Position numbers and translations under genes: made by a program. Shown piece after piece: positions 1 through 17,365 of a stretch of DNA of 32,814 nt (positions within the stretch are counted from its first letter, which is position 1; each line of letters opens with the position of its first letter). Origin of the DNA: Nitrospirota bacterium. GTDB lineage: Bacteria > Nitrospirota > Thermodesulfovibrionia > Thermodesulfovibrionales > UBA6898. The notes below the pieces were generated by a model. It worked only from the letters and a program-made list of their open reading frames with translations, made no database searches and had not been told where the DNA came from. The stretch lies in NCBI GenBank assembly GCA_021783515.1, contig JAJXTV010000036.1, forward strand, positions 1-32,814, given 5' to 3'.

Positions 1-157
1 CAGCCATATATTTCCATTGCGGCGGCCTGGACCTCTTTCCCAAAGCTCCCGCTAAACCAACACTATGCTTCAGAACACCCGTGACCACAATATGATGGGG
101 CTATCCATGAGAATGCCGGATGCGCCAACAATATTGCTCGCAAAGCGCACTGATGAT

Positions 158-214
158 TTACAACCAGGCGCTCGACTGCGACGCGCCATGCGGCGCGTCA
201 GCGCCGCGTTATAT
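158..214 (+). other. attC recombination site 1
   Basis: R'' box TTACAAC at 158-164 and R' box GTTATAT at 208-214 enclose an imperfect palindrome. The arm AACCAGGCGCT pairs with AGCGCCGCGTT, and GACGCGCC pairs with GGCGCGTC around a four-base loop. At 57 bp it lies near the short end of known attC lengths. It closes the cassette that is cut by the window edge and sits directly before the ribosome binding site of the 233-604 gene. Confidence 0.85.
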
Positions 215-232
215 TTTCAAAGGAGAACGATT

Positions 233-604
233 ATGAACGGAAAAGATATATATGAATTATTAGCCAAGCAAAGCATCCGCTTGTTCAATTTGTCGCTAGA
301 TAATGACACCATGACATTTATTCACACCAATAAAACTGTCGAAGAGTGGAGATCTGATGTGAAGCGTTTTACATTGGAACCTCAAATTACTGACGACAAA
401 GATGGTGGCGCCGATGACGACGTCTTCAATTTGCTAATGGAAAAACTCAGTGACTCCGGATATGTTGAAGTAAGTGACATAGTAGCAGATGTCTACGAAG
501 GTCGCACGGCCGTCTATTCTGCTCGCGTCGTTGATAGCCCAGCACACGAGGAACAAACCGATGGTTTTGGTCATTATGGTTGGGGTTCTAAAGACAAGAT
601 ATAA
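233..604 (+). CDS. Cassette-encoded hypothetical protein, 123 aa
   Basis: I do not recognise this acidic, soluble-looking protein of 123 residues; it shows no signal peptide or membrane segment. The ATG at 233 is chosen because AAGGAGA lies about seven bases upstream and because longer in-frame starts (from 65) would run through attC site 1. The C-terminal quarter is rich in Gly, His and Asp. Its TAA stop at 602-604 lies inside the R'' box of the next attC (599-605), the tight packing typical of integron cassettes. There is no promoter of its own; expression would depend on read-through from upstream. Function is unknown. Confidence 0.75.
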   Translation: MNGKDIYELLAKQSIRLFNLSLDNDTMTFIHTNKTVEEWRSDVKRFTLEPQITDDKDGGADDDVFNLLMEKLSDSGYVEVSDIVADVYEGRTAVYSARVVDSPAHEEQTDGFGHYGWGSKDKI

Positions 605-658
605 CATGGGGGTCCACAGCGACGCGCCAAAAAGCGGCGCGTGACCCCCGTGTTAGAA
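599..658 (+). other. attC recombination site 2
   Basis: R'' box ATATAAC (599-605) and R' box GTTAGAA (652-658). Arms TAACATGGGGGTC and GACCCCCGTGTTA pair with one mismatch, and inner arms ACGCGCC and GGCGCGT pair around an A-rich loop; length 60 bp. ATATAAC is the exact reverse complement of GTTATAT at 208-214, the sequence that opens this cassette, as expected for a cassette excised as a circle. The inner arm resembles that of attC site 1. Confidence 0.9.
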
Positions 659-674
659 GTGAGAATTATTATAA

Positions 675-1181
675 ATGACAAAAAATAATTCAGGTCTATT
701 CGCCTTTTGGATTTTTGCTGTTTATGCCGTCATTCGCGGCTTAATAATAACGGCAAAGACTATCCACAAATGGCCTAGCATGTTTCCCGATCAAGAAAGA
801 CTTCTCTGGCAGACAATTACGTTTTTACAAATATTCGGCCCTCTTATATTCTTACTCCTATTCTCTGTGATTCTATGGCGCATTACCCCTCGACTAACAA
901 ATAAAATCTTCGCGTTCGACGCCCGCTTCACTGATCCTACGAACAAAACAATTGCAATCATATCACTTATCCTCTCATGCATAGGACTTTATCTTCTTGT
1001 AGATGCGCTAGCCGAACTGAGTAAGGACAATTGTAACAATCTATGGCTTTTTGAAATACCCTTCTGTGCGACAGGATGTAAGTATTTATATACTGACGAC
1101 AATACTAAAATTCGTCGTCGGCTTTGGTCTGCTTCTTCGCGGCAAGGAACTGGTTACTGTTTTGCACAAACAGCGAAATGA
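675..1181 (+). CDS. Cassette-encoded membrane protein, 168 aa
   Basis: This unrecognised protein has about three hydrophobic segments, at roughly residues 8-27, 45-67 and 90-110. A polar C-terminal region follows, with several Cys (in and around FCATGC) and a basic tail. It lies between attC sites 2 and 3 and ends 10 bases before the latter. The start ATG at 675 is preceded by a weak AAGTGAGA purine stretch. Integron cassettes often encode small membrane proteins of unknown role; nothing in the sequence fixes the function here. Base composition is clearly AT-richer than in the chromosomal genes to the right. Confidence 0.7.
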   Translation: MTKNNSGLFAFWIFAVYAVIRGLIITAKTIHKWPSMFPDQERLLWQTITFLQIFGPLIFLLLFSVILWRITPRLTNKIFAFDARFTDPTNKTIAIISLILSCIGLYLLVDALAELSKDNCNNLWLFEIPFCATGCKYLYTDDNTKIRRRLWSASSRQGTGYCFAQTAK

Positions 1182-1191
1182 ATGAAAGAAC

Positions 1192-1282
1192 TTCTAACAA
1201 TCGCCTCCACGCCGACGCGGAATAACGCTGGTTCGATTTTGGCAAAGGTCTTTTCCCGCGCGGGTGAGGCTTGGCGTTCGGC
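1192..1282 (+). other. attC recombination site 3
   Basis: R'' box TTCTAAC (1192-1198) and R' box GTTCGGC (1276-1282), 91 bp, with arms containing GCCTC and GAGGC plus CG-rich stretches. CTTCTAAC (1191-1198) is the exact reverse complement of GTTAGAAG at 652-659, the opening of its own cassette. The central loop carries AATAACGCTGGTT, which recurs in attC site 4. R' is a variant, with C at the fourth position, but it is matched by the R'' of the next site. Confidence 0.85.
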
Positions 1283-1292
1283 ACAATAACAA

Positions 1293-2120
1293 ATGAAGAT
1301 TAAATTAATAAGAATTCTCCTCATCGCCATGGCTGTGCTTTCAATTACATGCTCGCTTGCAATGGCCGCTAAGAGGCATATTATTATCTTGGATAAGCCA
1401 GTAAGAGTCATGGCAAATGACATTAACGGGCGTGACATAGATGAATTTGATCATTATCCTCTACAGGTGACCATCGCGTATGGGGCAGACCGCTACAAAT
1501 TTAAAACTGATCTATTTCTTCAAAACTCAAACATCAAGGAAGCACTACAAAAGCAGAAAACACTTACAAGCTGGAAGGGGCCTTATCTTTTAGTCGGCTG
1601 GGAAAGAGGCGGCGGAAATCGCTCGCGTGGTTATCTAGATACGGTTTTTATGCTAAAAAAAGGTCGTCTGGTATACCTTGGTGAGGTTGACTCCGACTCA
1701 GTCGGGAATGGCGTATTCCAGGATTGGTACGACAAGTATGAGGGAAACGACTTAACGTCGCATGCGGGCTCGCCAGTTATCAGACTTGTTTTAGAGGAAA
1801 AGGGCGGAAGGCTTGTGGTCAATCTTGAAAAAACATGGAAAGAAAACCAGCAGAGATTAAATCAAAATATCGGGCTAATCGACATCGTATTAAAAGATAA
1901 GAAAATGGACTCAGAATCAAAGGCTAATGAGCTTTCAGATCCATTATTATTCCATTCAGTTCTTGCTAAATATTGTAAGCACAAAGCCGAGCTAGACGAT
2001 TTTCTCGATCTTGCCCGCAAGAAACTAGATGAAAACAAAATGACCATATTCTTGCAAATCCTGAGTGGTGTGATTCCCGGCGAATTACCACGCCCAGCAA
2101 TCAAGGTAATGAAATATTGA
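1293..2120 (+). CDS. Cassette-encoded secreted hypothetical protein, 275 aa
   Basis: The first 25 or so residues form a signal peptide: a basic start (MKIKLIR), a hydrophobic core and a likely cleavage after SLAMA. The mature part is hydrophilic. The N-terminal half (residues 30-175) appears beta-rich, and the C-terminal third (about 185-260) looks helical and charged. I recognise no family. The gene starts 10 bases after the attC site 3 R' box and stops 6 bases before attC site 4. At 275 residues it is long for a cassette protein. It probably acts in the periplasm or at the cell surface. Confidence 0.75.
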   Translation: MKIKLIRILLIAMAVLSITCSLAMAAKRHIIILDKPVRVMANDINGRDIDEFDHYPLQVTIAYGADRYKFKTDLFLQNSNIKEALQKQKTLTSWKGPYLLVGWERGGGNRSRGYLDTVFMLKKGRLVYLGEVDSDSVGNGVFQDWYDKYEGNDLTSHAGSPVIRLVLEEKGGRLVVNLEKTWKENQQRLNQNIGLIDIVLKDKKMDSESKANELSDPLLFHSVLAKYCKHKAELDDFLDLARKKLDENKMTIFLQILSGVIPGELPRPAIKVMKY

Positions 2121-2126
2121 AAGATT

Positions 2127-2216
2127 GCCGAACACAGAAATCAACCCGGCTGGCAATAACGCTGGTTTGTTTTCACTCATGGTGTTTGCGCCAGCGGGTT
2201 ATTTAATTCGTTAGCG
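2127..2216 (+). other. attC recombination site 4
   Basis: R'' box GCCGAAC (2127-2133) and R' box GTTAGCG (2210-2216), 90 bp. Arms AATCAACCCGGCTGGC and GCGCCAGCGGGTTATTT pair with two extrahelical bases, the asymmetry used for strand choice in attC folding. GCCGAAC is the exact reverse complement of GTTCGGC at 1276-1282. The central AATAACGCTGGTT motif is shared with attC site 3. Confidence 0.9.
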
Positions 2217-2226
2217 CACAAACCCT

Positions 2227-2799
2227 ATGGAATATTTATCGCTATTCAGAATGCCAACACCAATGAAGATCACTGGTCGATCTTCAAGCATCACAAATGC
2301 GTTTATTAATTCCATTATCCCTGTTGTTCCTCCGACAGCGGATGAGGTGAAGAATGCTCTGAAAATACTGGGCATGACACCGGAAACGTTTCAATGTGCC
2401 TATTGTGGTGGAGTCGCTTCTGAATGGGATCACCTCCGCCCCCTAGTCAAAGACAAGAAACCCACTGGATTCATTTCCGAAATTCATAATTTGGTGCCTT
2501 CCTGCGGAAAATGCAACCAATCGAAGGGAAACAAAGAATGGAAAACCTGGATACTTAGCAATGCAAAGCTATCCCCAACCGCGCGTGGCATTACAGATAT
2601 AGCTGAACGGGTCAAAAGGCTTGATGCTTACGAAAGATCCACGGCTCCAACCAAAATGGATTTTGCGGCTATCGTTGGGAAAGAAGTTTGGCAACAGCAT
2701 CAAAACAACTTGGAGCGAGTGCAGTCACTCATGCGCGAATCGCAAGAGCTTGCTGCTAAAATAAATACTGCGGTTGCAAACGCTTACAGAGCACTATAG
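2227..2799 (+). CDS. Cassette-encoded HNH endonuclease family protein
   Basis: This 190-residue protein carries an HNH nuclease core at about residues 57-103. It has CAYCGG (first zinc CxxC), then EWDHLRPL (catalytic His region), HNLVPSCGKCNQSKGNK (Asn, second CxxC and the terminal Lys/Asn stretch). The C-terminal half (about 115-190) is predicted helical, with no recognisable domain. Family knowledge supports metal-dependent DNA cleavage; restriction, defence or a mobile-element role are all possible and the sequence does not choose. The start at 2227 is the first ATG after attC site 4; no clear ribosome binding site is visible, and in-frame ATGs at 2251 and 2263 are alternatives. No attC follows, so this cassette is incomplete. 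Confidence 0.85.
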   Translation: MEYLSLFRMPTPMKITGRSSSITNAFINSIIPVVPPTADEVKNALKILGMTPETFQCAYCGGVASEWDHLRPLVKDKKPTGFISEIHNLVPSCGKCNQSKGNKEWKTWILSNAKLSPTARGITDIAERVKRLDAYERSTAPTKMDFAAIVGKEVWQQHQNNLERVQSLMRESQELAAKINTAVANAYRAL

Positions 2800-2897
2800 C
2801 AAATCACTCAAACCGGGGCTGGCGAACAATCGTACCAACAAAGTTAATTCAAATGTTAATGCAATGAGAAATAACAGTAAGGAAACAGGAAACAATA

Positions 2898-3038
2898 TCC
2901 GGGGGACCGGAAGATTACCTGAAGTCCAGAGGGGTGCAGTTGGTCGTGATCGACAGCCCCGAATGCAGGGACCTTATGAAGTCCTTCCTCGCAGAAAACC
3001 CGCGCTCTGAAGCGAGGATATCGGAGAATAAGCCTTAA
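2898..3038 (+). pseudogene. 3' remnant of a nucleoside/cytidine deaminase-family gene
   Basis: Reading from about 2898, the frame gives a GC-rich stretch of about 46 residues ending at TAA 3036-3038. It contains EDYLKSRGVQLVV, then DSPECRDLMKSFLAENP. The pattern 'ED-L-x-x-RGV-x-(V)-D-x-PEC-x-x-LM-x-x-F' matches the C-terminal helices of CDD/tadA-like nucleoside deaminases as I remember them. The zinc-binding core (HAE, PCxxC) is absent, and upstream the frame runs into AT-rich cassette DNA with a stop at 2865. The host gene therefore seems truncated by the integron array or by a deletion at its edge. The family call is from memory of the tail only. Confidence 0.5.
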
Positions 3039-3125
3039 CCGCGGCGATTCAGCCCCCGCATGAGGACTGCCTCTTTCCTGCCGTCCGCGGCCGCCCTCCG
3101 GCCTGCATAAAATAAAGAAAAAGTT

Positions 3126-3154
3126 TATAATACGCCAGATTCGTTGCGACAACG
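3126..3154 (+). promoter_or_regulatory. Possible -10 box and small palindrome upstream of the DUF898 gene
   Basis: A perfect TATAAT lies at 3126-3131 in an AT-rich stretch just before the 3235 start; the -35 position is poor. Immediately downstream, CGTTG-CGA-CAACG (3142-3154) is a short inverted repeat that could be an operator. The rest of 3039-3234 shows nothing recognisable. Confidence 0.35.
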
Positions 3155-3234
3155 TTGTGAAGACCGCAGGGGAGGGATCATGGCTCAACGCGCAGCATAC
3201 GCAGTGCCTCAGAAAACTATTGGGGGAACCGCCG

Positions 3235-5946
3235 ATGCCTGTCTATAAACTCATCTTCCGCGGCGTACTGAGCGCCGATCTTCCCGCACCCGAAATACGC
3301 GATCGGCTCCTCAGGCTTTATGGAAACAAGGCAGACGTCGCCGACCGCTTCTTCACGGGCCGGACTCTGGTCGTCAGAAAAGACCTCGATTACCCGGCCG
3401 CCGAGAAATACCGGGCGATGTTCGAGCGGGCCGGGGTGCCCTGCGACATCGTAGAAGACCGGCCTGCCCTGTCCTCTGCGGGCACAGGACAGGCCGCTCA
3501 GAAAAGCACCGCCAGGAAAGGTCCCGGCCTGCCGGCTTCGCGCTCCGCCGCAGGAACCAGCAGCTACTCCCGCACAGACACGCGACCGCAGCGGGGCGTC
3601 ACTCCACCTCTCCCCCGGACCGCAGTGAAACGCAATGACTCCCTCCTGAAGGGCGACACGCTTCAGAACACCCTCGCGGCGCTCATGATACTGATGATCG
3701 TCGCAGGCGCGGGGTTCCGCATCTGGGTGATCAACAAGGCCCGCGCCATTCACCCCCCCGATCAGGTGAGCGCCACCGCGACGGAGGTCTGCCTGCATGC
3801 AAACGGCGTCATCTACTTTCTTGCCCCGGACGGCCGCCTCACTCAGCGCGTCCCGCTCAGGGACATCGGGCTGAGCCGCGAGCCGGCCGATCTACAGCTC
3901 CTCCGAAACGGCGACTTCCTCATCGGCGATCTCGAAAAAGGAGAAATCAGGCGATGCGAAAGAAAGACGCTCGCCTGCCGCAGAATCGGGCCGGCCGGAG
4001 GCTACTCGATCCGGGAGAACTTCAAGTTTCTGCTGGATGAAGGCAGAAACCTCCTCTTCATCTCCGACACGAACAACCACGCGCTCCTCGTGCAGGGACT
4101 TGACGGATCGGGCATCAGGAAGATAGACAGCAAGGCCGCCATCCTCTATCCCAACGGTCTTGCGGAGGACGGCGAGGGAAGGCTCTGGTTGAGCAACACG
4201 GCGAAGGAAGAGGTCGTCCCCTTCGAGATCGCCGATAAAGCGGTCACGCAGGCCGACGCCTCCGTCTCTCTCGCGCCGCATTCGGATGAGCTCGACAAAA
4301 TAAAGGAGAGCATGAAGCAGAAGCCCGGCGAAGGGCGCCGCAGTCTGAAGGATATCTTCGCAAGGTTCCGTGAACTGCAGAAGGTCCAGGAGAAGCTCGG
4401 GGACGACCTCGTTCAGAAAAGGCCTCTCTCCATCGCATGGGACGCCGCCGGAAACCTCTGGGTCGCGGCGAGCGACGGCTTCGTGACCACGGCGGGCGTC
4501 AGGGTATTCGACCCCTCCGGGAAGCAGCTCGGCCGCATCCCCCTCGGAAAAGGGGCGGTCCCCGTAGACGTCGCGGCATCGGGAGACCGCATCCTGATCG
4601 CAGACAGCGGGCTCTTTCAGATCTTTTCGGTCCCGCCTGGCTCATATGCGCCGGCCGCCTTCGGCGATACGGCCTTCCGGCAGGAACTCTCGAAGGCACG
4701 GGACCTTCTCGGCCGCTACCGCTCCCTTACGACGTGGTCCGGAAGGGGAATCTGGCTTCTTGCCTTCGCAACCGTCCTTCTCGTCGTCTTCATCGCCGCA
4801 AGAAATTACGGCAGGCGCCAGCAGGCTGCGGCAGCGGCCCGCGAGGCGGCCCGGAGGTCCGCACCCCCGGCAGGAGTCCGGCCCGATGAAACGCCGCCCG
4901 GCGTCACGCGACGCTACGGACTTGAATTCACCGGCACCGGCGCGGAGTATTTCAGGATATGGATCGTGAATGTCTTTCTCACGATCGTGACTCTCGGGAT
5001 ATACGGCGCCTGGGCCAAGGTGAGGACCCGCCGGTATTTCTACCGCAACACCCTCCTCGGCGGACACGCCTTCGACTATACCGCCGATCCGCTCGCGCTA
5101 CTGAAGGGATACGGCATCGTGGCTGCGGGGCTGCTTGGCTACTACCTGGTAAAATACTTCAACCCGATGTACGGACTTCTCGTCCTCGCCCTCTTCTCGC
5201 TCGTGATACCGCTTCTCGTCTACAAGTCGCTCCGCTTCTTCACGCGCAACTCGACCTACCGGAACATACCCTTCCGCTTCCTCGGCACGCTCGGGGAAAG
5301 CTACCGGACCTATCTCTTTTATCCCCTCCTGATCGTCTTCACGCTCGGGCTGATCGTGCCGTACTGGACGTTCAGGAAGAAGAAGTACCTGTTCGACAAC
5401 GTCGGCTACGGCACGACGACCAATTCCTTCACCGGCACCCACGGGCCGTTTTACCGCGTTTATATCGTGATGGCGATGGCAATCATCCTGGCCTCCGTTT
5501 CCTTCGCCTTTGCCGCGGCGCTTCTGGGGCCCTTGCTTTCCGCGGCAGCCCCTTCGGGGGGTGTTCCGAAGGCCGCCGGCTTCCTGACGATTCTCTTGCT
5601 CGTATACGGCGCCATGCTGATAGTCGTCTCGTTCTTTCAGATGTACATCTATGCCTGGTCGACGAACTACTGCTTCGTGCATTCGGAGCTGGGCGAACTC
5701 AGGTTCGACTGCACCCTGAGCGGCTGGAGGCTCTTCTGGATACGGATATCCAATATCGCGGCGATCATCTTTTCGATAGGCCTCCTCACGCCCTGGGCAA
5801 AGGTGCGCCGGATGCGCTACCTCGCAGACAACCTGTCGGTAATAGCCGCCTGCGATCTCGGGAATTTCACCGCCGCGGCAGCGCCCGCGGACGCCGCATA
5901 CGGAGATGCCGCAACCGACTTTTTCGACCTGGAGATCGGTCTGTGA
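3235..5946 (+). CDS. Multidomain membrane protein: N-terminal module, beta-propeller-like region, DUF898 (YjgN-like)
   Basis: Residues 1-78 form a small basic module with TGRTLVVRK, LDYPAAEKY and AGVPCDIVE, a type I recognise at the N-terminus of other membrane proteins. A Pro/Ser-rich linker and a membrane segment (about 145-165) follow. Residues 180-480 contain repeated blade-like strands (DGRLTQRV, NGDFLIGDL, LFISDTNNHALL, EGRLWLSNT, AGNLWVAAS) suggestive of an NHL/SMP-30 propeller. A second membrane segment lies near 504-522. Residues 561-871 are a polytopic DUF898 region with three internal copies ending in WAKVRTRRYFYRN, WTFRKKKYLFDN and WAKVRRMRYLADN. The start at ATG 3235 (GGGGGA upstream) is preferred over GTG 3157. 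The stop overlaps the downstream M48 protease start. Function is unknown; an envelope sensing or folding role is inferred. Confidence 0.8.
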   Translation: MPVYKLIFRGVLSADLPAPEIRDRLLRLYGNKADVADRFFTGRTLVVRKDLDYPAAEKYRAMFERAGVPCDIVEDRPALSSAGTGQAAQKSTARKGPGLPASRSAAGTSSYSRTDTRPQRGVTPPLPRTAVKRNDSLLKGDTLQNTLAALMILMIVAGAGFRIWVINKARAIHPPDQVSATATEVCLHANGVIYFLAPDGRLTQRVPLRDIGLSREPADLQLLRNGDFLIGDLEKGEIRRCERKTLACRRIGPAGGYSIRENFKFLLDEGRNLLFISDTNNHALLVQGLDGSGIRKIDSKAAILYPNGLAEDGEGRLWLSNTAKEEVVPFEIADKAVTQADASVSLAPHSDELDKIKESMKQKPGEGRRSLKDIFARFRELQKVQEKLGDDLVQKRPLSIAWDAAGNLWVAASDGFVTTAGVRVFDPSGKQLGRIPLGKGAVPVDVAASGDRILIADSGLFQIFSVPPGSYAPAAFGDTAFRQELSKARDLLGRYRSLTTWSGRGIWLLAFATVLLVVFIAARNYGRRQQAAAAAREAARRSAPPAGVRPDETPPGVTRRYGLEFTGTGAEYFRIWIVNVFLTIVTLGIYGAWAKVRTRRYFYRNTLLGGHAFDYTADPLALLKGYGIVAAGLLGYYLVKYFNPMYGLLVLALFSLVIPLLVYKSLRFFTRNSTYRNIPFRFLGTLGESYRTYLFYPLLIVFTLGLIVPYWTFRKKKYLFDNVGYGTTTNSFTGTHGPFYRVYIVMAMAIILASVSFAFAAALLGPLLSAAAPSGGVPKAAGFLTILLLVYGAMLIVVSFFQMYIYAWSTNYCFVHSELGELRFDCTLSGWRLFWIRISNIAAIIFSIGLLTPWAKVRRMRYLADNLSVIAACDLGNFTAAAAPADAAYGDAATDFFDLEIGL

Positions 5947-8052: not shown

Positions 8053-8993
8053 ACCTGATTCGGAAGATGAGTGTCCATACGGTGGCGGGGGTGGCGGCAG
8101 CCTCCCTTTTCCTCTTGGCGACGGCAGGCTATGCCCGGGCTGCCGAGAGGCTGACGAAGCTGGCGGACAATGTCTATGCGTATGTCGACACGCATGGGGC
8201 AACGCCCCACAACAGCTTCGGCGCCAACACGGGGGTCATCATCGGCAACGACGGCATCGCCGTCGTCGACACGCTGATCTCGGCAAAAGAGGCGGACCGT
8301 TTCATCAGGGACATCCGGAGCATCTCGGACAAGCCGATCCGGTACGTGATCAATACCCATTCGCATCTCGACCACACCTTCGGCAATTCCGAATTCGCAA
8401 GGCTCGGCGCGGTGATCGTATCCCACGAAAACTGCAGGAAGAACATGCTTGCAAACGGAGAGGCAAACCTGAAGAAGGCAGGCGCATACGGGCTGACGGA
8501 AAAGGAGATGGAGGGCACACGCCTTTCCTACCCATCCCTCACGTTCAGCGACCGGATGGAGATCGGCCTTGGCGGCCAGACAATACAATTGATCTATCCC
8601 GGGCCTTCCCACACGGACGGCAGCATTATGGTCTATCTGCCCGACAAGCGGATCCTATTTGCGGGAGATATCCTCTTTACGGACTATCACCCGAATATCG
8701 CAAGCGCAGACCTCGACAGCTGGCTGACGGTCCTCGATAGGGTCGCCGCCCTCGATGCCGAAAAGATCGTACCCGGCCACGGCCCGCTATCGGCCAACAA
8801 GGACCTGGCCGACATGAAGGGGTACATCACCCTGTTCGACAAGAAGGCAAAAGAGCTGGCGGCGGCATCGTCGGATCCGCAGTATATCGCGTCGGAACTG
8901 AAGAAAGCGCTGCCCGCGCGGAAGGAGCTGGAGTTTCTGATCACCGCCAATATCATGCAGAGATATCTGAAGAAACAGGGGAGTAAAAAATGA
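8049..8993 (+). CDS. Secreted metallo-beta-lactamase-fold hydrolase
   Basis: This 314-residue protein has a signal peptide (residues 1-32, cleavage likely after ARA). The MBL metal site is complete: HSHLDH at about 104-109, a His in GPSHTDGS near 190, Asp in FAGDIL near 204, and His in VPGHGPL near 245. The spacing suits broad MBL hydrolases, such as the periplasmic quinoprotein-associated or SoxH-like type, rather than a clinical beta-lactamase. Substrate unknown. The ribosome site AAAGGAGG lies just upstream. It overlaps the small ORF before it and the methyltransferase after it by four bases each, so all are one operon. Confidence 0.85.
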   Translation: MNLIRKMSVHTVAGVAAASLFLLATAGYARAAERLTKLADNVYAYVDTHGATPHNSFGANTGVIIGNDGIAVVDTLISAKEADRFIRDIRSISDKPIRYVINTHSHLDHTFGNSEFARLGAVIVSHENCRKNMLANGEANLKKAGAYGLTEKEMEGTRLSYPSLTFSDRMEIGLGGQTIQLIYPGPSHTDGSIMVYLPDKRILFAGDILFTDYHPNIASADLDSWLTVLDRVAALDAEKIVPGHGPLSANKDLADMKGYITLFDKKAKELAAASSDPQYIASELKKALPARKELEFLITANIMQRYLKKQGSKK

Positions 8994-11614: not shown

Positions 11615-12247
11615 GTGAATTTCAGGATCGATCTTCATGTCCATTCGAAGTACAGCGGCGACACCGATGCCGAGCCGGAGGAACTGATCTCTCATGCGAT
11701 CGCCGCCGGGATGAACGGCATCGCGTTCACCGAGCATTACTCCTTCAGGGCGTCCGCGCCGGTGGAGAGGCTGAGGGAGAAGTACGAAGACTCCATACTG
11801 ATAGTAAGAGGCGTCGAACTGTCGGCCGCAGAGGGCCACTGTCTCGTTTTCGGAGCCGACACCGACAGGCTGCCGCTTTCGCACGCGCCGCTGGAGGTAA
11901 TAGTGAGGGTCGTCAACGAGGCGGGCGGCGTCGTTATCCCGTCCCACCCCTTCCGGAGGGGAAGCGGCATCGGCGAGGCCCTTAACGGGATAGAGGGGAT
12001 CTGCGCACTCGAGGGTTACAACGGCGCAAATCTCCATGCCTTCAACGCCAGGGCGATCGAGGTCGCACAAGAACTGAAGCTGCCCTTCACCGGCGGATCG
12101 GATGCCCACGCGCCGCGGGAAGTCGGATCGTGTTACACCGAATTCTTCGAGGTGGTGTCTTCCGACAACCTGATCACCCTGCTCAGAAAGGGCGGCTACC
12201 GCGGGGCCGACGCAAGAAAGATCAGCAGGGGATGGTGGCCGTTCTGA
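11615..12247 (+). CDS. PHP-domain metal-dependent phosphoesterase
   Basis: The 210-residue protein has the PHP metal-binding motifs in order: DLHVHSKYSGD at 6-16, FTEHYS at 38-43, GVELS at 65-69, PSHPFR at 108-113 and GGSDAHAPREVG near 165-176. PHP enzymes hydrolyse phosphoesters, e.g. histidinol phosphate or 3',5'-nucleoside bisphosphates; this one's substrate is not clear. The GTG start at 11615 has no evident ribosome site. A possible promoter (TTACGG 11578-11583, TATCAT 11602-11607, 18-base spacer) would start transcription near 11614, implying a leaderless message. That reading is tentative. Confidence 0.83.
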   Translation: MNFRIDLHVHSKYSGDTDAEPEELISHAIAAGMNGIAFTEHYSFRASAPVERLREKYEDSILIVRGVELSAAEGHCLVFGADTDRLPLSHAPLEVIVRVVNEAGGVVIPSHPFRRGSGIGEALNGIEGICALEGYNGANLHAFNARAIEVAQELKLPFTGGSDAHAPREVGSCYTEFFEVVSSDNLITLLRKGGYRGADARKISRGWWPF

Positions 12248-12281
12248 TGCGGCGCGCGGTCCGCTTGCGGATGCCGTGAAA

Positions 12282-12436
12282 TGGTATAATGATACACGTG
12301 AACCGCTGAAATATCTGACGAGCCAGTCAAGTGAGACGTGTTGAGACTCTTCCATGAGTGTAACGGGAAAAGAGGACAGACAGCCGGCAGCCCGCAGAAA
12401 TGAGCTGTCGTCCTGTCGTGCCCTTTCGGAGACTCC
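12282..12436 (+). promoter_or_regulatory. Extended -10 promoter and structured leader before the hybrid kinase
   Basis: TGGTATAAT at 12282-12290 is an extended -10 element; no good -35 is seen. The roughly 140-base leader contains a stem of GACAGACAGC (12375-12384) with GCTGTCGTCCTGTC (12404-12417) just upstream of the kinase ribosome site GGAG (12428-12431). No known riboswitch is recognised. The remainder of 12248-12436 holds no ORF of note. Confidence 0.4.
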
Positions 12437-14836
12437 GTGAACGACGATTCCCTTGTAAAAGCCATCGGTGAAATTGCGGACGAGATCAGCCTCGCCAAGG
12501 AGGTCATCTCCGCAATGGGCAACGCCGTCTCGATCATAGATTTCGGCTTCAGGGTCCTTTACCAGAACCGTCTCCACCAGGAACTCACCGGCGATCAGAA
12601 AGGCAAATTCTGCTACTCGGGGTTCAGGGGGAAAGAACGGGTCTGCGAAGACTGTCCCGTGGCGATGGCCTATGCCGACGGCAACGTACATACGATAGAA
12701 AGGCCCTCGACGAACACTAATGGGCCCCTCTGGGTCGAGATTACCGCCTCTCCGCTGAGGGACGGGCAGGGCCGGATCGTGGCCGGCATCGAGATCGTGA
12801 GGGACATATCGGCCCGGAAACGCGCGGAAGAGGAACTGCAGGGATACCGCACCCGGCTCGAAGAACTCGTCGAGGCGCGCACTGCCCAGCTGACGGCCGC
12901 CAACGACCGCCTTACCCGGGAAATCACGGAGCGCAGAAAGGCGATGGAGGCGTCGGAAAAATACGAGAGGATAGTTTCGGCCAGTCCCGACCACATCTCG
13001 ATACTCGGCAGAGATTACATCTACAAGGAGATCAACCCCGCCTATATCAAGGCCCACGGGCAGCCCTATTCTGAGATCGTAGGCCGGTCTGTCCCGGATA
13101 TGCTCGGCCATGAGTTGTTCGAGAAGGTCGTCAGGGAGAATCTCGACAGATGTCTTGCCGGAGAGACGGTCAAATATGAGGCATGGTTCGATTTTGCCGC
13201 GATCGGCCGCCGCTTCATGAGCGTCACCTATTATCCCTATTACGACGGCGACGATGTCATCTCAGGGGTGGTCGTAAGCTCACGCGATATCACGGAGACG
13301 AAGAAAGCTGAGCGCGAGATGAAGTTCGCGCTTCTCAAAGCCGATCAGGAACGGGCAAAGTCTGAGGCGATCATCGCGGCGATCGGCGACGGCGTCAGCA
13401 TTCAGGACGCCGATTTCAGGGTCCTCTACCAGAACCAGATCCATAAGGACCTCATGGGAGATCATGGCGGCGAACACTGCTATAAGGCCTTTCAAGAACG
13501 GGACGGCGTCTGCGACGACTGCCCCGTCGAGCGTTCCCTCCGGGACGGGAAGGTCCATCGCGCGGAGAAGGAAGTCGCCTGGCCCGACGGCACCCGCTAT
13601 CTCGAGCATACCGCTTCCCCGCTGAAGGATGCCGACGGCAGGATTATCGCCGGCGTCAAGATAATCAGGGACATCACCGATCGGAAAAAAGCGGATGAAG
13701 AGCTTATCAGGGCGGAAAAACTCGAATCCCTCGGCCTCCTTTCCGGGGGCATCGCGCACGACTTCAACAACCTTCTTTCGGCCCTCATCGGAAATATTTC
13801 TCTGGCCCGGATCTATACTGACCCCAAAAGCCGGGTATACGATCTGCTGAGCGAGGCCGAACGGGCCTCTTCGCTGGCGAAAGACCTGACGCAGCAGCTG
13901 CTTACGTACTCAAGGGGAGGACAGCCGCTCAAGAAGATATTCTCTCTGCCCCCGCTCCTGAGAGGCTCCGCCGAGTTTGCACTCAGGGGGTCCAACGTAA
14001 GGTTCGAGCTGTCCGCCGGGGATGACATCTGGACCGTCGGGGCGGATGAGGGACAGCTGAGCCAGGTTGTCAACAATCTGATCATCAACGCGCAGCAGGC
14101 GATGCCGAAGGGCGGGACGATACGGATCCGGTGCGACAACATCGTGGCCCCCGGCAGCGGGCCGTCGATTCTGAAGGAGGGGCGGTACGTGCGGGTCCTC
14201 ATCGAAGACGAGGGGATCGGGATCCCCAGGAAATATCTCGACAAGATATTCGACCCCTACTTTACGACCAAGCAAAAAGGAAGCGGCCTTGGACTTGCCA
14301 CCGCATACTCGATTATCAGGAAGCACGAAGGATACCTGACGGTAGAATCGACTCCGGGAGTGGGAACGACATTTACTATCTTCATTCCCGCCTCGGGCCA
14401 AAAGGCTGCCGAGACGCAGGCGGAGGCAAGGCCCCTCATGAGGGGGAGGGGAAAGGTCCTCGTCATGGACGACGAAGAAGTGATCCGCCTGATAGTCGGC
14501 AGGATGCTCGAAAGCCTCGGATATACCGCCGAGTCCGCGGAACGGGGAGAGGAAGCAGTCGAAATATACCAGAAGGCCCTTCGATCGGGAGAGCCGATCG
14601 ACGCGGTCATTATCGACCTGACGATACGCGGCGGCATGGGGGGGCTCGACTGTATGAAGGCACTCCGGGAAATCGACCCGAACGTACGGGCGATCGTTTC
14701 GAGCGGCTATTCGGAGGACCCGGTCATGGCGCATCACGACACCTTCGGGTTCGGTGGGATAATCGTAAAACCGTACCGGATTGAAGACCTCGGAGAGATC
14801 CTCCACAGGGTCCTCGGGGACAGGCAGGAAGAATGA
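12437..14836 (+). CDS. Hybrid histidine kinase (PAS-PAS-PAS-HisKA-HATPase-REC)
   Basis: 799 residues, with no membrane segment, so a cytoplasmic sensor. PAS domains lie at about 30-130, 185-290 and 310-415, with a coiled coil after the first. The first and third PAS each carry a Cys pattern, CYSGFRGKERVCEDCP and CYKAFQERDGVCDDCP, that could bind metal or sense redox. The H-box GGIAHDFNN places the phosphorylated His at about 441. HATPase motifs NNLIINAQQAM, DEGIGIP and GSGLGLAT follow. A C-terminal receiver starts near 673 with DDEE, phosphoacceptor Asp near 727 (VIIDLT) and VKPY. The GTG start is supported by GGAG five bases upstream. No separate output protein is adjacent; the next gene is signal peptidase. 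Confidence 0.9.
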   Translation: MNDDSLVKAIGEIADEISLAKEVISAMGNAVSIIDFGFRVLYQNRLHQELTGDQKGKFCYSGFRGKERVCEDCPVAMAYADGNVHTIERPSTNTNGPLWVEITASPLRDGQGRIVAGIEIVRDISARKRAEEELQGYRTRLEELVEARTAQLTAANDRLTREITERRKAMEASEKYERIVSASPDHISILGRDYIYKEINPAYIKAHGQPYSEIVGRSVPDMLGHELFEKVVRENLDRCLAGETVKYEAWFDFAAIGRRFMSVTYYPYYDGDDVISGVVVSSRDITETKKAEREMKFALLKADQERAKSEAIIAAIGDGVSIQDADFRVLYQNQIHKDLMGDHGGEHCYKAFQERDGVCDDCPVERSLRDGKVHRAEKEVAWPDGTRYLEHTASPLKDADGRIIAGVKIIRDITDRKKADEELIRAEKLESLGLLSGGIAHDFNNLLSALIGNISLARIYTDPKSRVYDLLSEAERASSLAKDLTQQLLTYSRGGQPLKKIFSLPPLLRGSAEFALRGSNVRFELSAGDDIWTVGADEGQLSQVVNNLIINAQQAMPKGGTIRIRCDNIVAPGSGPSILKEGRYVRVLIEDEGIGIPRKYLDKIFDPYFTTKQKGSGLGLATAYSIIRKHEGYLTVESTPGVGTTFTIFIPASGQKAAETQAEARPLMRGRGKVLVMDDEEVIRLIVGRMLESLGYTAESAERGEEAVEIYQKALRSGEPIDAVIIDLTIRGGMGGLDCMKALREIDPNVRAIVSSGYSEDPVMAHHDTFGFGGIIVKPYRIEDLGEILHRVLGDRQEE

Positions 14837-14915
14837 TGCGGGGCCGCACGGTGTCCCGCGGTGCGCACGTCCGCGCGCATCCACTCCAATTTCGCCACGA
14901 GGAAAGGACCATAAC

Positions 14916-15557
14916 ATGACACAATACAGTTCGGCTGCCCCCCCGGCGACAGCGAAGAAGTCGGTACTCCGCGACTATCTGGAATCAATCGCCTTCGCGA
15001 TCGTTATCGCGCTCGTCCTGAGGACCTTCGTTGTGCAGGCCTTCAAGATACCCTCCGGGTCCATGGAAAATACCCTCGCCGTTGGAGATTATATCCTCGT
15101 CAATAAGTTCATCTACGGCATCGAGCTGCCCTTCACCGACAGGCATCTCTTCCCCCTCCGGAGCCCGAAGCGGGGAGACATTGCCGTCTTCGAATATCCT
15201 GAGGACCCCAGCAGGGACTTCGTCAAGCGCGTCATAGGAGTGCCGGGAGACCGGATACAGATCGTCGACAAGAAGGTATTCATCAACGGGACGCGCTACG
15301 TAAACCCCCACGAGATCCATAAGGACAGCGCGGTTATCGCTGCCGGCGTCAATCAGCGCGACAACACCGGGGTAATCACGGTGCCCCCCGCCTCCTATTT
15401 CATGATGGGTGACAACCGCGATCAATCCTATGACAGCCGTTTCTGGGGCTTCGTCAGGATAGGAAGGATCAAGGGGCTGGCCTTCGTCAAATACTGGTCG
15501 TGGGATACGGACGGATCCCGCGTACGCTGGGATCATATCGGGAGGCTTCTCGAGTAG
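14916..15557 (+). CDS. lepB: Signal peptidase I
   Basis: The 213-residue protein has one N-terminal membrane segment (about 22-41). Catalytic Ser49 is in IPSGSMENTL, and the general-base Lys104 is in RDFVKRVIGVPGD. The C-terminal box MGDNRDQSYDSRFWG is complete. It cleaves signal peptides of exported proteins at the periplasmic face of the inner membrane. ATG 14916 is preceded by GAGGAAAGGACC; the longer frame from 14781 has no support and overlaps the kinase end. The single membrane segment is a common short form outside enterobacteria. Confidence 0.95.
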   Translation: MTQYSSAAPPATAKKSVLRDYLESIAFAIVIALVLRTFVVQAFKIPSGSMENTLAVGDYILVNKFIYGIELPFTDRHLFPLRSPKRGDIAVFEYPEDPSRDFVKRVIGVPGDRIQIVDKKVFINGTRYVNPHEIHKDSAVIAAGVNQRDNTGVITVPPASYFMMGDNRDQSYDSRFWGFVRIGRIKGLAFVKYWSWDTDGSRVRWDHIGRLLE

Positions 15558-15600
15558 CAGAGGCCCCGCCTCCACTCCTCGCCCTCTCAATGACGCTCTC

Positions 15601-15646
15601 TTGACACTTTTCCCCAATTTCGCTATATTATTATCTACCATGGTAG
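15601..15646 (+). promoter_or_regulatory. Consensus promoter and palindromic operator candidate at the TrmB gene
   Basis: TTGACA (15601-15606), a 17-base spacer and TATATT (15624-15629) form a near-consensus sigma70 promoter; transcription should start at about 15636. CTACCATGGTAG (15635-15646) is a perfect 12-base palindrome containing the start codon ATG (15640). It is a likely autoregulatory site for the TrmB-family protein. Confidence 0.7.
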
Positions 15647-16458
15647 TGAATAGCCTCGCAGACAGGCTTGCAGATGTGGGGCTCTCGGCATACGAAGCGA
15701 GGGCATACGTTGCGCTGCTCAGAAAGAACCCCCTGACCGCGTATGAGCTGGCCAAGGCTTCGGGGATCCCGACCTCGAAGGTATACGAAGTCCTCTCCCG
15801 GCTCACCGAGAAGAAGGTCGTATCCGCCCTCGGCGACGAGGGAACGCCCAAGTATTATCCGATGGACCCGGAGGAGTTCATCGAGCGGTTCAGAAGCGGG
15901 GTGGAGGCCAATCTGAGCGCCCTCAGAGAAGACCTCGCGGGCCTTTCCGGTAAGGCGTCAGTCTCTTATATCTGGAACGTTCTCGACCACGATTATCTCG
16001 TCGAAAAGGCCCACCGCACGATCCTCGACGCGCGAGAGACGCTTCTGGTGTCGATATGGAAGGAGGAACTGGCCTCGCTCGACCTCTTCTTCCGCCGGGC
16101 GGAAGAAAAAGGCGTGCGCATCGCGATGGTCCATTTCGGAACGCCGGCCGTCAGGATCGGACAGGTATACCCCCATCCTATAGAAGAGACCCTCTATGAG
16201 GAAAAAGGGGGCAGAGGACTCGTGATCGTGGCGGACTCGAAGACGGCACTGATGGCGACCCTCCACGATGACCGGCAGGTCGAAGGCGCCTGGAGCATCA
16301 ACAAGGGGTTCGTCACCCTTGCGGAAGATTATATCAAACACGACATATACATCATGAAGGTAGTGAGAAGATTCAATAGACAACTTATCGAAAAATTCGG
16401 TCCCCGGTACGAGCAGATGAGAAATGTATACCAGGACCAGGACAAGGAGACGGCATGA
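15640..16458 (+). CDS. TrmB-family transcriptional regulator
   Basis: 272 residues from ATG 15640. Residues about 6-80 are a winged helix of TrmB type (LADVGLSAYEARAYVALL, then YELAKASGIPTSKVYEVLSRL, KYYPMDPEEF). The C-terminal part (about 105-265) fits the TrmB effector region, with a phospholipase-D-like SIWKEELASL segment. TrmB regulators usually sense sugars or metabolites; the ligand is unknown. TTG at 15601 is rejected as the start because it is the -35 box of the promoter. The message would then have only about four bases before ATG, i.e. nearly leaderless; GTG 15646 is an alternative. The stop overlaps the aminotransferase ATG, so the regulator probably controls its own operon with that enzyme. 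Confidence 0.85.
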   Translation: MVVNSLADRLADVGLSAYEARAYVALLRKNPLTAYELAKASGIPTSKVYEVLSRLTEKKVVSALGDEGTPKYYPMDPEEFIERFRSGVEANLSALREDLAGLSGKASVSYIWNVLDHDYLVEKAHRTILDARETLLVSIWKEELASLDLFFRRAEEKGVRIAMVHFGTPAVRIGQVYPHPIEETLYEEKGGRGLVIVADSKTALMATLHDDRQVEGAWSINKGFVTLAEDYIKHDIYIMKVVRRFNRQLIEKFGPRYEQMRNVYQDQDKETA

Positions 16459-17306
16459 AAATCTATATCGACGGCACATACCACAGCAAAGACGAGGCGA
16501 AGATATCGGTCTTCGATCACGGGCTGCTTTACGGAGACGGCGTCTTCGAAGGCATACGGGCATATGACGGAAGGGTCTTCAGGCTGGCAGAGCATATCGA
16601 CCGCCTTTACGCAAGCGCAACGGCGGTAGCGCTGGAAATCCCTATGGCCAAAAAAGAGATGGCGTCTGCAGTAGTCGGAGCGGTCCACGAAAACGGGACG
16701 CAGGACGGCTATATCAGGCTGGTTGTGACGAGAGGGGCAGGGTCCCTCGGCCTGGATCCCTCATCATGCGGAAAACCGACGGTGATCATCATCGTGGGCG
16801 ATATTCAGCTCTATCCGAAAGAGTATTATCAAAAAGGTATACGGATCGTGACCGCAGCCACCCGCAGGATTCCCCCGGAATGCCTCGACCCCAGGATCAA
16901 ATCGCTCAACTACCTCAATAACATCATGGCGAAGGCAGAAGCGCGGCGTGCGGGAGCGCTCGAGGCGGTGATGCTGAACACACGGGGATATGTGGCGGAG
17001 TGCACCGCCGACAATATCTTCATCGTAAAAGACGGCCGGCTTCTCACGCCCCTTCCCTCCGACGGCGCGCTAGACGGGATCACGCGCAGGGCGGTGCAGG
17101 AGCTCGCGGCCGCAGGAGATATCGGCTGCATCGAAACAGCTCTCACCCAGTACGATCTCTACACCGCGGATGAATGCTTCATCACCGGCACGGGGGCCGA
17201 GGTGATGCCGGTGATCGGGATAGATGACCGCGCCATAGGGGAAGGGAAGCCCGGGCCGCTTACGCTGCGCCTGATCGATGCCTACCGGAAGCTCGTGGCG
17301 GAATGA
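16455..17306 (+). CDS. ilvE: Class IV branched-chain amino acid aminotransferase
   Basis: The 283-residue PLP enzyme of fold type IV has FDHGLLYGDGVFEGIRAY at 20-37, the catalytic Lys in DPRIKSLNYLNNI (about 149), and the cofactor-binding VAECTADNIFIV and LDGITRRAVQEL stretches. The overall pattern suits IlvE (transamination of leucine, isoleucine and valine), though D-amino acid aminotransferase and 4-amino-4-deoxychorismate lyase are close relatives. The start overlaps the TrmB gene stop (ATGA), indicating co-expression. Length is typical of short bacterial IlvE (about 285-300). Confidence 0.85.
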   Translation: MKIYIDGTYHSKDEAKISVFDHGLLYGDGVFEGIRAYDGRVFRLAEHIDRLYASATAVALEIPMAKKEMASAVVGAVHENGTQDGYIRLVVTRGAGSLGLDPSSCGKPTVIIIVGDIQLYPKEYYQKGIRIVTAATRRIPPECLDPRIKSLNYLNNIMAKAEARRAGALEAVMLNTRGYVAECTADNIFIVKDGRLLTPLPSDGALDGITRRAVQELAAAGDIGCIETALTQYDLYTADECFITGTGAEVMPVIGIDDRAIGEGKPGPLTLRLIDAYRKLVAE

Positions 17307-17365
17307 CGGACTGTGAAGCTGCGCCGAAAACCGCAGGGGCTCTAAGGGTATGCTAAGTCCCGGGC

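Follow-up and report, generated by a model that had tools for sequence, protein, structure and literature searches.

Results

Gene cassettes and attC sites at the left end of the contig

The window analyzed here (32.8 kb) is the entire contig C7 of a 3.16-Mb draft genome assembled in 48 contigs, and its base 1 is a contig end. Four palindromic sites were read directly from the sequence at positions 158-214, 599-658, 1192-1282, and 2127-2216, and an ORF on the + strand starts with ATG 18-26 bases past the GTT of each site. The hairpins are flanked by the R'' (RYYYAAC) and R' (GTTRRRY) boxes, with AAC and GTT present in all four sites and 5-6 of the 8 degenerate consensus positions fitted. The extrahelical C (G on the bottom strand), which marks the polarity of attC, was also present in 4/4 sites.

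Two of the sites are short and two are long. Site 1 (158-214, + strand) has R'' TTACAAC at 158-164 and R' GTTATAT at 208-214; its arms are GACGCGCC and GGCGCGTC and the extrahelical C follows GGCGCT. Site 2 (599-658, + strand), with R'' ATATAAC and R' GTTAGAA, shares with it the short apical loop. Sites 3 (1192-1282, + strand; R'' TTCTAAC, R' GTTCGGC) and 4 (2127-2216, + strand; R'' GCCGAAC, R' GTTAGCG) have a long apex with AATAACGCTGGTT.

The G|TT borders delimit four cassettes, all with the ORF on the + strand. Cassette 1 (209-652) encodes a protein of 123 aa (233-604) that belongs to no family, and its ATG is preceded by the ribosome-binding-like motif AAAGGAG. The 168-aa product of cassette 2 (653-1276; ORF 675-1181) resembles a membrane protein and gave only a weak NnrS match, below the Pfam cut-off. 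Cassette 3 (1277-2210; ORF 1293-2120) encodes 275 aa, again without a family assignment, with a hydrophobic N-terminus that by eye looks like a signal peptide. Cassette 4 (2211-2850, right end approximate), the last of the array, codes for a 190-aa HNH endonuclease (2227-2799) matching Pfam PF01844 above the cut-off, with weak matches to PtuB-like profiles. Full-length relatives of this nuclease, 37-38% identical, are encoded on two Hymenobacter plasmids, and in the one plasmid inspected the gene is flanked by metal-efflux genes. A search of PLSDB revealed no plasmid carrying similar DNA. The GC content of the cassettes is 0.39-0.46 vs. 0.60 in the remainder of the contig.

Cassette 4 has no recognizable right-hand attC, either by the covariance model or by a search for the expected R'' GCGCTAAC. 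It is followed by a 3' remnant of a cytosine-deaminase-like gene (2910-3038, + strand; phmmer match to the C-terminus of yeast cytosine deaminase, E 1e-4). No second match to this remnant was found elsewhere in the genome, and no homologue in the examined stretches of relatives that carry the neighboring 904-aa gene (L135, L136). The right edge of the array (approximately 2850) thus looks like a decayed junction beside the deaminase remnant.

A covariance model built from other contigs recognizes the four sites

A home-made hairpin scanner turned out to be non-discriminating, with shuffled sequence scoring similarly (up to 17.3), and covariance models were used instead. The model was trained on 14 attC sites from other contigs and none from the window. 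Nine of them lie on contigs reached via intI (C42, C30, C13) and the other five on contigs found by similarity to the window sequence (C36, C21, C3), which makes the test independent in large part but not entirely.

The search of the 32.8-kb window returned exactly four matches, all on the + strand, i.e., the strand of the ORFs, and no further attC up to E = 10. In agreement with the original prediction of attC sites, they coincide with those read by eye: 158-215 (31.1 bits, E 8e-6), 599-659 (26.5 bits, E 1e-4), 1192-1283 (78.0 bits, E 3e-18), and 2127-2217 (65.4 bits, E 7e-15), with the two short sites scoring low. In the alignment of the 14 training sites, the stem of 23 pairs gave a covariation score of 0.443 vs. 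0.182 for shuffled and at most 0.128 for slid alignments. The central stem covaries strongly, while the four variable R-box pairs are mostly unpaired within the integrated site. All aligned sites have an invariant C without a partner in their left arm (alignment column 16), which corresponds on the top strand to the extrahelical G of the bottom strand.

With a limit of E = 1, the whole-genome search detected 25 sites, or about 30 when short sites from a smaller search are included. Nearly all are in C42 or close to contig ends, as expected from the tendency of attC repeats to break short-read assemblies (PMC9024848). The repeats of this genome are thus clustered in arrays, mostly at contig ends, and are not scattered as ordinary intergenic palindromes.

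Neither the window nor eight other loci gave a match in Rfam at the gathering thresholds. Permissive matches to snoRNA and lncRNA families in window positions 1-3200 and in loci L051 and L058 were dismissed as noise.

Integrases of the genome and the ownership of the array

No integrase was found on C7 by profile search. As the contig is broken off at base 1, inside the array, this absence is an effect of the break, and no integrase can be attributed to the array. An intact integron integrase gene lies at C42:10755-11810 (TIGR02249, 373.5-373.6 bits vs. a cut-off of 265). It adjoins an attI-like GTTATATG (C42:11852), followed by eight cassettes whose end matches span 8-12 bases.

Degenerate integron integrases were noted at L057 1248-1755, L055 approximately 8181-8757 (- strand), and L056 approximately 3103-3263. 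The degenerate intI genes on C30 and C26 keep the N- and C-terminal parts and miss the middle, and only the C-terminus is left on C13. The C30 sequence spanning attI and the start of intI recurs, at 99% identity, at the end of contig C21.

A cluster of at least two attC sites without an integrase nearby is termed a CALIN. C7 has four attC sites, neither intI nor attI, and an array cut by the contig end. The chances are about even that this array is not a stand-alone attC cluster but the split part of a complete integron, with its intI on another contig (C26, C19/C21, or C42). C7 starts within the array, several other contig ends hold intI pieces or attC sites, and the breakage of short-read assemblies at attC repeats (PMC9024848) would account for such a split. 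On the other hand, the first 160 bases of C7 overlap with no other contig end, and on its right the array adjoins a truncated gene, as a decayed or isolated array does.

Cassette ends are complementary in cognate pairs

The original prediction stated that three successive cassettes open with the complement of their own R'' box, and these matches proved exact. The start of cassette 1 (208-605), GTTATAT at 208, is the reverse complement of its own 3' R'' ATATAAC (599-605) over 7 bases. In cassette 2 (652-1198), GTTAGAAGT at 652 is the reverse complement of ACTTCTAAC, which ends at 1198 (9 bases), and in cassette 3 (1276-2133), GTTCGGCA at 1276 is that of TGCCGAAC, which ends at 2133 (8 bases).

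In a swap test, all cassette starts were compared with all R'' boxes in eight arrays (C7, C42, C12, C36, C21, C3, C30, C14) comprising 20 cassettes. At least 7 exact bases were shared by 14/20 cognate pairs, or 15 after correction of a one-base offset in the site table at C14, where the true match is 8 bases. Among the non-cognate start/R'' pairs this was the case for only 10/682 (1.5%), and among the R''/R' boxes of the same integrated site for 0/26. The five cassettes left below 7 bases after this correction, two of which barely match, suggest that some arrays are decayed or that some attC sites were missed.

Complementarity of the ends alone is weak and no proof. As many as 23 of the 266 GTT 7-mers of the window (9%) have an exact reverse complement 200-1200 bases downstream, and the matches are decisive only at borders that are set independently by the attC sites. 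The R'' and the adjacent R' of an array belong to different cassettes, hence the pattern of the swap test is what circular excision and insertion of cassettes predict.

That the repeats are intergenic palindromes or REP/MITE-like terminators that chance to fall between genes is extremely improbable and is refuted by the cognate-pair test: all four are indeed palindromic, lie between co-directional ORFs, and would not be told from shuffled sequence by a simple hairpin scanner alone, but REP/MITE elements predict neither the clustering seen across the genome, with no extra model match in 30 kb of the window, nor the asymmetric extrahelical C of all aligned sites, nor border complementarity tied to cognate cassettes.

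The covariance model, the extrahelical C, the swap test, and the intact intI elsewhere in the genome thus back the claim that an integron array can be established here with no integrase in view. Positions 1 to approximately 2850 of the window almost certainly represent the distal end of an array of integron gene cassettes, in which the unit is one ORF with an attC site.

Discussion

The array at the left end of the contig is a genuine integron array, though one of the textbook kind. It resembles the arrays of chromosomal (sedentary) integrons and CALINs in its co-directional, single-ORF cassettes separated by attC sites, in the low GC content and complementary ends of the cassettes, and in the mostly unassigned functions of their products. 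It differs from the arrays compared in being cut by a contig end, and its attC sites are of unequal size (57-91 bp), in contrast to the near-identical sites of Vibrio.

By analogy with established integron biology, the cassettes of C7 would come and go as circles. The integron integrase would cut attC at G|TTRRRY within R', acting on the folded bottom strand. In the circle, the hairpin would be completed by the first bases of the cassette, opposite the R'' box of the same cassette, and integration would then put the length of the cassette between the two. Pairing in the circle followed by separation on integration would leave the start of the cassette, and not the adjacent R', as the exact complement of R''. 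The enzyme performing these reactions was presumably an IntI of this genome, either that of C42 or a lost or unlinked one.

The complementarity of cassette ends is already established integron biology, which makes the finding sound but ordinary. Self-pairing of R'' and R' in cassettes was reported to reach 9-11 nt, and the extrahelical G to decide the choice of strand (PMC2727003), while the scoring of core and inverse-core boxes is a long-standing rule of annotation (PMC2674596). For the C7 array, a known system has been read correctly, and in itself this leaves the understanding of integron function unchanged. It does confirm that raw sequence suffices to locate cassette borders, and the match of cognate ends, set against the lack of one between neighboring boxes of a single site, gives a sharp internal control.

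The division of the attC sites into two sub-families, from which an origin of the cassettes in at least two pools had been deduced, holds as a description only. The short (56-66 bp) and long (86-99 bp) types have a common R/L core and the extrahelical C, and differ mainly in the apical loop. Both types co-occur in other arrays of the genome (C21, C13), and a single array of a Nitrospira MAG (L067) mixes sites of 57, 74, 79, 82, and 99 bp. Since the core is shared and the types are mixed within single arrays, different site sizes in one array give no evidence of two source pools.

The analysis also adds an integron-rich bacterial family to the map, with the C42 intI strongly matched in 18 of the 27 genomes searched. 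Many IntI proteins from MAGs of Elusimicrobia, Nitrospira, Verrucomicrobia, and Deltaproteobacteria share 42-50% identity with the C42 IntI along most of its length, and many of the intI genes of these relatives in other phyla have attC sites adjacent, as does that of C42. At many of these loci attC follows intI downstream and shares its strand, whereas in C42 it lies on the 5' side of intI and on the opposite strand.

The array of C42 and the repeat linked with intI, both described below, are less ordinary than the C7 array. L049 (C42) 11852-17352 is the sole array attached to an intact intI, and in its cassettes 1-7 the longest ORF is antisense to attC; cassette 8 has just an 83-aa sense ORF. 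The strand of the C42 attC sites was confirmed with a second model built without them. The antisense genes include DUF3440/PAPS-reductase, ParB-like, and SspD-like ones, and the DNA flanking the array carries helicase, primase, and integrase genes of phage-like families. In the other arrays of the genome nearly all cassettes are sense, and one cassette of C3 has a longer antisense ORF.

In this genus, a conserved non-coding repeat of approximately 180 bp was found in 16 copies in total (L057 1780-1975; L055 7960-8149, - strand; L056 3288-3476; L106 1489-1694, - strand; L146-L157). Nine of the 16 immediately follow the 3' end of an integron integrase gene or remnant, on the same strand, and three further ones lie within approximately 1.5 kb of an attC site. 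The copies are 94-96% identical within the genome and approximately 70-75% identical in four relatives. The repeat may be the outer end of the integron platform, an insertion site, or a small RNA.

A wider picture, rather unlikely as it stands, may be drawn for the genome and perhaps the genus: the integron system would be multi-copy, with most intI genes beside the approximately 180-nt non-coding element decayed, and the intact C42 IntI, on phage- or plasmid-like DNA and holding antisense-gene cassettes, could mobilize cassettes in trans in orphan arrays such as that of C7.

At two attC sites on different contigs, L051 6333-6355 (- strand) and L058 1085-1107, the last bases of R' are replaced by the same sequence, which gave no match in Rfam. 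It starts with GTGTG/GTGTAT, continues with GCCGGACATGGCACAGAACTTAC, and by eye looks like the 5' end of a group II intron.
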